Under the pieces are notes generated by a model that saw only the letters and a program-made list of their open reading frames with translations, did no database searches and had not been told where the DNA came from. A DNA stretch of 40,853 bases from Deltaproteobacteria bacterium (GTDB lineage Bacteria; Myxococcota; Myxococcia; Myxococcales; JAHFDP01), in NCBI GenBank assembly GCA_023248955.1, contig JAHFDP010000036.1:1-40853 (forward strand), written 5' to 3'. Both the position numbers and the translations under genes were made by a program. Every line of letters begins with the position of its first letter. Positions within the stretch are counted from its first letter, which is position 1. Below are positions 5,976 through 35,385 of this stretch, one piece after another.

Positions 5976-6848
5976 TCAGTTCGCGCTCCGCCGCGCTCCG
6001 CGATAATCAAACGCATCCGCGCGCGCGAAACCTTGCGGCGTGGTCTGCGCCACGCGACGCCGCAGCCGCGCCAGCGATTCCTGCACCGTGCGCGGCGCGG
6101 GGTGGTTGGCCAACGCCTCGATGTAGCTGCGCTCAGCCAGCATCTCCTCGCCCGCTTCCGCTGCGCAGTCGCCCGCCTCCACCAACGCGATTGGCGCTTC
6201 CGGTGAACTCGGCCAACGCGCCGCTACGTCGTGCAGGGCCTCGGCCGCTAGGATCGCTTTCCCGGCCAAGTGCAGCGCATGTCCAGCAACCATCTGCGCC
6301 GCTGGGCCAAGCGACGATTGCGGATAGTGCAACAGGAGAGCCTCTGCCTCGCAGATGGCCTGATCGTGATTGCCCGCGTCCAGGAACGTGCGCGCGGCTT
6401 TGAGCTGTACCTCGTCGGCGCCGGCGTGGTTCGGGAATGCCTCGACGACGCCCAAGTACGCACCCGCAGCGGCGGGAAAATCCTTCAACTTGTCGTGCAG
6501 CAGATCGCCGAGACGCATTCGCGCGGAAAAGGCCGCCTCCGTTCCGCCGTACTCCATGGCTATGCGCCGAAAATAGGCGGCGGCGTCGCCTGGGCGGGCG
6601 AGATCCAGCTCGAGGAGGTCGGCCGCCATCTGCAACGCACGCAGGCGCTCGAAACGCGCGTCGCCGGACACGCCTTCGCCGAGCGTGATCAGCGCGGCCT
6701 TGACCGAGAGATAAGCCGCTTGGGCATGACCCGAAAGCGCTAGATCGCGCGCGCCGTCGAGCTGACGATGCGCGCCGCACGCGGAAGCGAAGACCGCGAT
6801 GGAGGCGGCCACGGCGAGCGCTCGGAGGCGAATAAGCCGGAAAGCCAC
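5976..6848 (-). CDS. TPR-repeat lipoprotein
   Basis: From GTG at 6848 the product has a lipoprotein signal ([21 protein letters not shown], acylated Cys about residue 24). A helical Ala-rich body follows with TPR-like units such as [40 protein letters not shown] and [20 protein letters not shown]. This resembles BamD/CpoB-like periplasmic TPR proteins, but I cannot assign a partner. An alternative ATG at 6878 would add ten residues encoded by the dispersed repeat; GTG gives the more normal signal length. A perfect 10-base tandem duplication (5982-5991 and 5992-6001) lies at the 3' end, just before the stop. A third copy would shift the frame into about 25 further codons ending [13 protein letters not shown], so the present C-terminus may be shortened. 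Confidence 0.78.
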
Positions 6849-7011
6849 AGTTGCCGTGGAACCGAGACGGTCGAGCATGGGTCGGCTACGAGGCGCGCAC
6901 GAGGAGCCCCCGGAAGCGCACTTTTCGGTGCGCTGAGGAGGCACCGGAGGAGCACCGAAGTAGACGGCCCGCGATCGGCCGTCGCAGGTAACGGCAATTG
7001 TGGTTTTCCGG
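6837..7011. repeat. Structured dispersed repeat, copy A (short form)
   Basis: This 175-base element matches 33258-33564. Its ends are inverted repeats of 21 bases beginning CCGGAAAGCCACAG and ending CAATTGTGGTTTTCCGG; only two positions differ, and both would be G-U pairs in RNA. Internal hairpins include GCGCAC/GTGCGC (loop TTTTCG) and GACGGCC/GGCCGTC. The left end overlaps the first codons of the TPR lipoprotein. The gene-free stretch 6849-7266 consists of this copy, a 56-base spacer, the nested palindrome at 7068-7225 and about 40 bases before the gyrA stop. I see no gene in it. Confidence 0.85.
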
Positions 7012-7067
7012 CTAAGCACGACTCGCAATAACGCAATCGGACAGGTGGCGGCAAGGCCGATCGCGTC

Positions 7068-7225
7068 AGAGCGGTTTTCATTTGCGTTGAGCCGACTCTC
7101 TTCAGCCGTCATGGCCGGGCTTGACCCGGCCATCCACGTGCATCGTGCTGGCATCCACCGCGTGGATGGCCGGGTCGGGGCCCGGCCATGACGGGAGCGA
7201 GATCGACGCAAGTGAAAACCGCTCT
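7068..7225. repeat. Nested palindromic element
   Basis: The outer 20-base arms start AGAGCGGTTTTCA (7068-7087) and are repeated inverted at 7206-7225 with one mismatch. Inside, GTCATGGCCGGGCTTGACCC... (7108-7138) is repeated inverted at 7161-7192 with minor changes. Each inner arm is itself a palindrome, GGCCGGGcttgaCCCGGCC, so the element can fold as a cruciform with branched arms. No coding capacity is visible. It resembles abundant intergenic palindromes I associate with alpha-proteobacteria; that link comes from memory, not from a search. Confidence 0.85.
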
Positions 7226-33234: not shown

Positions 33235-33250
33235 TGTTTCACGTGGAACA
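33235..33250. promoter_or_regulatory. parS-like site 1
   Basis: TGTTTCACGTGGAACA matches the 16-base bacterial parS consensus TGTTTCACGTGAAACA with one change. It lies between rsmG and parA, next to copy B of the dispersed repeat. ParB (34495-35361) is the expected binder and would nucleate the segregation complex here. Confidence 0.88.
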
Positions 33251-33257
33251 TCTTCTG

Positions 33258-33564
33258 CCGGAAATCCACGGTTGCCGTGGAACCGAGACGGTCGAGCGTG
33301 GGTCGGCTACGAGGCGCGCACGAAGGGACTCCTCCGGTACTGGGGGAGATGTCGCGCAGCGACAGAGGGGGGCCGCTTGCGGCGAGCAAGCCCCCGGAAG
33401 CGCACTTGGGGGTGCGCTGAGGAGGCACCGGAGGAGCCCGCTATGTGATCGGGCGCTTCCAGCGCCACCAATCGGGCCGGCCGCGCTTTCAATATGCGCG
33501 GCAAGCACCGAAGTAGACGGGCCGCGATCGGCCGTCGCGGGTAACGGCAATTGTGGTTTCCCGG
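33258..33564. repeat. Structured dispersed repeat, copy B (long form)
   Basis: This 307-base element matches copy A (6837-7011) in its outer and core parts, at roughly 90% identity by eye. Terminal 21-base arms begin CCGGAAATCCACGG and end CAATTGTGGTTTCCCGG; the arms can still pair, with G-U pairs and two mismatches. Two inserts absent from copy A lie at about 33324-33389 and 33437-33505. Each is full of hairpins (TGTCG/CGACA, GGCGC/GCGCC, GCCGCGC/GCGCGGC). The gene-free stretch 33218-33646 holds the parS site, this element and about 80 bases leading to parA in which I see nothing else distinct. Confidence 0.85.
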
Positions 33565-33646
33565 TTCAGCCCGACTGGCGGCCTCCGCTTCGCCATGCTA
33601 CAGGCTCGAAACCATGCGGATGTTCTAATCGTGTAATCCATTAGCC

Positions 33647-35369: not shown

Positions 35370-35385
35370 TGTTCCACGTGAAACA
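35370..35385. promoter_or_regulatory. parS-like site 2
   Basis: TGTTCCACGTGAAACA, 8 bases after the parB stop, matches the parS consensus with one change. The change sits in the arm opposite to the one altered in site 1. It lies upstream of the bactofilin gene. Confidence 0.88.

Follow-up and report, generated by a model that had tools for sequence, protein, structure and literature searches.

Probable high-copy MITEs with IS1380-like ends and a modular interior shared with other elements in an uncultured bacterium of the Deltaproteobacteria/Myxococcota type

Analysis of a 40,853-nucleotide stretch of genomic DNA (hereafter, the window) revealed two copies of a palindromic repeat, here called F1, which we consider, with a probability of roughly 0.85, to be a MITE mobilised in trans by an IS1380-type transposase, with an interior that carries exchangeable cassettes and is shared with elements bounded by other ends. 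The host is an uncultured bacterium of the Deltaproteobacteria/Myxococcota type, whose ParB is 58-59% identical to those of two Deltaproteobacteria MAGs and which is the sole member of its family among the genomes compared. Its assembly comprises 3.83 Mb in 116 contigs (95.6% complete, 0.7% contaminated).

Both window copies lie on the plus strand and share their outer arms and middle part, in agreement with the initial annotation of this DNA: copy A, the long form, at positions 33257-33564 (308 nt), and copy B, the short form without modules, at 6836-7011 (176 nt). Copy A is composed of 5′ arm, module I, middle, module II and 3′ arm, and exceeds copy B by two extra blocks, module I of 63 nt (33326-33388, plus strand) and module II of 69 nt with three short stems (33436-33504, plus strand). 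Its left terminal inverted repeat, CCGGAAATCCACGGTTGCCGT, was located by a terminal-repeat pattern search at 33258-33278 on the plus strand and the right one, CCGGGAAACCACAATTGCCGT on the minus strand, at 33544-33564; those of copy B are found at 6837-6857 (plus strand, CCGGAAAGCCACAGTTGCCGT) and 6991-7011 (minus strand). The middle part contains an internal hairpin in which, as had also been pointed out, the GCGCAC/GTGCGC stem is kept while the loop changes, being TTGGGG in copy A (33400-33417, plus strand) and TTTTCG in copy B (6916-6933, plus strand). The accompanying statement that the arm differences of copy A are exclusively G-U compatible turned out to be wrong, as its terminal stem contains, in addition to two G.T pairs (33270/33552 and 33271/33551), one A.C pair (33262/33560) and one T.T pair (33265/33557). 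Copy A is flanked by TTCTG (33253-33257) and TTCAG (33565-33569), a presumed 5-bp target duplication matching at four of its five positions, and copy B by ATAAG (6832-6836) and CTAAG (7012-7016), with the same degree of matching.

Copy A is located between rsmG and parA, both assigned by Pfam matches, and a perfect parS-like palindrome (33235-33250) lies immediately upstream of it. Together with a second perfect one behind parB at 35370-35385, this palindrome brackets parAB (the two sequences being TGTTTCACGTGGAACA and its complement), and copy A thus sits between the first palindrome and parA. No homologues were found at 80 parB loci of relatives. Copy B occupies the interval between gyrA and a gene encoding a TPR lipoprotein. 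This gene (minus strand, 5976 to about 6848) has a possible GTG start within the left end of copy B (6836-6848); if that start were used, copy B would provide the start codon and the first residues of the lipoprotein. Another palindromic element, with ends AGAGCGGTTTTCA...TGAAAACCGCTCT and the inner perfect inverted repeats CCGTCATGGCCGGGC and GACCCGGCCATCCACG, adjoins copy B at 7068-7225.

The count of two copies given in the initial annotation is valid for the window only, since the repeat occurs at about 43 places genome-wide. The search for further copies that had been proposed retrieved 68 stretches of the host assembly matching F1, and the terminal repeat gave 75 matches with 0-3 mismatches, distributed over those 43 or so places, whereas a reversed control pattern gave none; the repeat is therefore not a product of chance. 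Several contigs start or stop within F1, as is expected of a true multicopy repeat. Outside the host, F1 was absent from all 144 further genomes of the order, a collection that may lack near relatives, and a DNA search of 99 relatives, among which near ones are possibly missing as well, returned only three fragments of 26-39 nt and no F1. An exact-pattern scan of 84,980 GTDB species genomes yielded 0 matches, a plasmid search gave no matches, and a covariance model of module II run on 145 genomes of the order recognised only the host genome.

Complete F1 copies were mostly 176, 245, 308, 302, 365 or 504 nt in size and carried terminal inverted repeats of 21-22 bp, with the ends CCGGAAA...TTTCCGG. 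Outside CCGG...CCGG we observed a 5-bp direct repeat with the consensus YTNAR. The left and right flanking 5-mers matched on average at 3.78 of 5 positions, compared with 2.84 after permutation (p < 1/20000, none of 20000 permutations being higher), and the unconstrained third base of the duplication agreed in 26 of 32 copies, where 9.4 would be expected. Identical left and right 5-mers were present at nine copies, the target duplications of most copies being imperfect. According to a rough gene call, no copy lay inside a called gene and several were positioned exactly at a stop codon, where we infer that the duplicated YTNAR restores the stop. Two reduced derivatives, both with YTNAR-like flanks, were also detected: a palindrome of some 36 bp made up of the two ends only (L075, C92:67380), and a form with the ends and outer arms only (L079, C61:6547).

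A remnant of an IS1380-family transposase (NF033539, 1.6e-11 and 8e-7) on contig C28 has a terminus, CCTGAAAACCTCAGTTGACC, that is identical to the F1 end CCGGAAAWCCACARTTGCC at about 17 of 20 bases, and an IS1380-like deletion derivative on C64 combines an F1-type end with a TTCAG/TTCAG duplication. IS1380 elements are known to produce target duplications of 4-5 bp (PMC3281130, PMC4133298). It is this similarity of the ends, together with the target length, that suggests mobilisation by an IS1380 partner; we infer the partner indirectly because the 116-contig assembly contained no intact IS1380 transposase, but a single interrupted remnant close to a contig end on C28, and in an assembly so divided this absence lowers the probability of the link without excluding it. 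The transposases encoded on C71 (IS4/Tn5-like) and C95 (ISAs1) were set aside as partners of F1, since they belong to other families. Taken together, F1 combines terminal inverted repeats, a target-site duplication, small size, many copies and no transposase, as is typical of a MITE, with the IS1380-like ends and 5-bp direct repeats (4-5 bp in the family) of an IS1380-derived one. The earlier proposal of a non-autonomous mobile element is thus well supported by copy number, terminal repeats, the 5-bp duplication and the likeness of the ends to the IS1380 remnant. F1 would be a non-autonomous DNA transposon of high copy number, and an IS1380-family transposase acting in trans would recognise its CCGGAAA...TTTCCGG ends, cut there and insert the element at YTNAR, with the observed duplication of 5 bp. 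A separate unit of 52-57 nt, F5 (AAGAAACTCGAACCCGTTTCC...GGTGAAAACTAAG), was found at 11 places (L241-L251) on contigs C6, C11, C20, C28, C61, C71, C77, C80, C92 and C112, in tandem on C20, and adjoins F1 or IS1380-type ends, on either side, at most of these places.

Both window copies folded far better than dinucleotide shuffles (z of -6.6 and -9.7). Covariation was detected in F1 at the pairs 46-133 (GC/CG) and 53-126 (AT/GT/GC), at four pairs in module II, and in the related family F2 at 13 of 71 pairs, the latter from only nine sequences but exceeding every one of the slid controls as well as 500 shuffles. Such covariation fits palindrome correction and selection on RNA equally well. Long palindromes are homogenised by template switching during replication (PMC8794818), and because this process gives the same result, a joint change of both arms does not show an RNA function. 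That the arm covariation of these elements is purely mutational, arising by template switching at quasi-palindromes and carrying no functional information, seems to us rather probable, and would not contradict the MITE reading. Besides being a documented mechanism, it agrees with the finding that both ends of one F2 element share the same variant (GGGCGTGTCC, GGGCCTGTCC, GGGCATGTCC or GGGTGTGTTC) while different elements differ (permutation p of 0.003), and with the lack of a significant strand bias. It accounts less readily for the fixed mismatches and G-T pairs retained by F1 instead of perfect arms, for F1 ends that showed no within-element concert (3.59 vs 3.61 differences), and for the location of the compensatory changes of module II in small hairpins. 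Under the MITE reading, the arms would stay complementary mainly through replication template switching that copies one arm onto the other.

The 176-nt hairpin core of F1 is accompanied by three optional modules, in the order 5′ arm, module III (57 nt), module I (63 nt), middle, module II (69 nt) and 3′ arm. Among 29 aligned copies, 12 carried modules I and II, eight carried II without I, nine had neither, and none had I without II; module II was present in 0, 1 or 3 copies with a period of 69 nt. When modules were placed on a tree of the arms, module I required 12 changes for 12 carriers and module II nine changes for the nine copies lacking it, a maximally scattered distribution, although these counts are upper estimates owing to the weak support of the arm tree, which has no starred branch. 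From these sequences, module content thus appears not to follow the relatedness of the arms. In keeping with this, copy B and the copy L003 have nearly identical cores and yet represent the short and the long form, respectively. Elements would acquire, lose or exchange cassettes with precision, as the pattern of carriers suggests, and members with different cassette sets would multiply side by side. This precise gain and loss may be due to gene conversion between copies, to structure-guided deletion or to independent mobility of module II. As a separate observation, the first half of module I (33326-33372) resembles, with a compensatory stem change, a motif, GGGGGAGATGTCSCGCAGSGACAGAGGGGG (compared at the loci L300, L301 and L302), that occurs on plasmids of Rhizobium and Deinococcus and on contigs of gut phages and is possibly a cross-phylum repeat.

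Three further families share parts of this interior. F2 occurs at 10 places and has the ends TAGGGCNTGTCCTCAAATTCG, which resemble TAAGGCCTGTCCCTAAATTC, the terminus beside the C-terminal remnant of an IS5-family transposase on C25; its flanks fit a TA duplication. The cores of F1 and F2 align 28 standard deviations above shuffles, whereas their terminal 24 nt are unrelated (z of 0.1), and the homology ends abruptly at CCGAGACG and CGCAGGT. IS5/IS427 elements mostly generate a duplication of 2 bp (PMC3281130), and F2 accordingly resembles a MITE of the IS5/IS427 type in its IS5-like ends and its TA duplication, but differs from it by its F1-type core; the interior is thus not confined to a single type of transposon. 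Comparison of an Ensifer IS5 element with the F2 end type gave no clear result. F3 has the ends AGCCTGTG/AGGTTGTG and an apparent 5-bp duplication, and F4 the ends AGAGCTGTCGATTAATC and an apparent 3-bp TNA duplication, the flanks of both having been read from the listed sequences. The two families have a nearly identical core (41 standard deviations above shuffles), which is unrelated to that of F1, and different ends. From F1/F2 and F3/F4 it follows that one interior stands behind different transposon ends twice in this genome. As the abrupt stop of homology at the ends shows, the F1 interior has come to lie within the ends of at least one further type of transposon, the IS5-like ends of F2, and F3 and F4 repeat this end-swapping with another core, module II being common to both.

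Two insertions of F3 (L158, C73:38973-39128; L159, C64:10410-10565) were found at identical positions within the terminal repeat, one in an F1 copy and one in an IS1380-like element, at CCACAG^TTG and CCTCAG^TTC with apparent duplications CACAG or CTCAG. The F4 copy L116 (C11:20111 onward) is broken before its right end by what was judged by eye to be the 5′ end of a group II intron-like sequence (GTGTGCCCAGCATGGGC...).

Module II is polymorphic, that is, present or absent, within each of F1, F2, F3 and F4. Its site is GGA^GCAC in F1 and F2 and GGTGA^ATGCG in F3 and F4, and, since these flanks are not homologous, homologous recombination alone could not have moved it from one of these pairs of families to the other. 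An arrangement with modules II and III exists in both F1 (L021) and F2 (L035, L037, L119). Such distributions would also be consistent with a bolder reading, which we regard as speculative and unlikely: the interior itself would be the persistent unit, a layered parasite whose core, and especially module II, precisely enters and leaves elements and is repackaged in unrelated shells (IS1380-like, IS5-like and two others).

It appears decidedly improbable that F1 represents a structured RNA family, with a transcribed plus strand and a fold selected for regulation, for mRNA 3′-end stability or for the spread of the element itself. The strong folding and covariation described above speak for such a family, although covariation is also a product of palindrome homogenisation. 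The F1 plus strand follows a gene on the same strand at 22 of 31 scorable copies (rough gene call), a bias that may merely reflect insertion at stop codons. Shared non-Watson-Crick states in F1 leaned to G-T over A-C by 8 to 1 in a first, lax count, which looked convincing, but a stricter count limited to helix interiors gave 7:2 for shared, 10:8 for private and 4:4 for fixed variants (p of 0.41), and the G-U bias was discarded as proof of selection on RNA. No Rfam family matched the elements: a scan of the window gave 0 matches at the gathering score, and a scan of six element loci gave a single unrelated, weak match outside the elements. Selection on RNA or single-strand folding, as put forward in the initial annotation, therefore remains unproven, the covariation being strong but equally explained by homogenisation and the G-U excess not being significant.

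Rickettsia palindromic elements encode short peptides. A comparable coding role for F1 is highly improbable: in 28 of 29 copies one frame of the minus strand is free of stops, and the module lengths of 57, 63 and 69 are all multiples of three, but open frames in F1 are attributable to its high GC content, stop-making substitutions were not significantly avoided (0 vs 1.3 expected, p of 0.26), substitutions were not enriched at third positions (30, 18 and 24 by codon position), and no copy lies within a called gene in the rough gene call. The coding hypothesis was rejected on the stop-avoidance and codon-position counts, and the earlier statement that neither a transposase nor coding potential is present holds in the sense that frames are open without signs of selection in these counts. 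Spread as a REP/REPIN or IS200/IS605-type element, through recognition of single-strand hairpins by a Y1 transposase, would suit the hairpins, high copy number and intergenic location, but is hardly credible given target duplications that Y1 chemistry does not make and terminal inverted repeats that match the end of a DDE transposase.

In organisation, F1 recalls the BOX elements of Streptococcus pneumoniae, in which outer boxA and boxC enclose internal boxB in varying number (PMC3049150), as it likewise has fixed outer parts and an optional module in zero to several tandem copies. The closest precedent for the end-swapping of F1-F4, again in terms of organisation, is the BOX of S. suis, in which the same boxB modules occur within two types of ends, boxA/C and boxE/F (PMC3049150). 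F1-F4 differ from BOX in having three distinct optional modules, each with a site of its own, and a palindromic core, and in the spread of module II over four families with two unrelated cores. With known small transposase-less elements F1 shares ends like those of its presumed transposon, here an IS1380 remnant, as well as the 5-bp duplication, high copy number, mostly intergenic location and a stable stem-loop; it differs from AT-rich ones in being GC-rich with an interior of optional cassettes that is also found between unrelated ends. Tn3-ended non-autonomous elements are similar in their structured cores and mosaic derivatives, but have Tn3 ends, duplications of 5-6 bp and usually one copy per genome.

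MITEs are commonly taken to be what deletion has left of a single insertion sequence. What is unusual here is the repeated swapping of ends around one interior in one genome, and the recurrent, precise gain or loss of one module, whose presence at a fixed site varies within four families built on two unrelated cores. The covariation of these elements also illustrates that covariation in the hairpins of repeats is, by itself, no evidence for a functional RNA. With a structured interior standing behind two unrelated transposon ends, twice, in a single genome, both the exchange of ends and interiors among MITEs and the part played in it by palindrome correction become directly testable.
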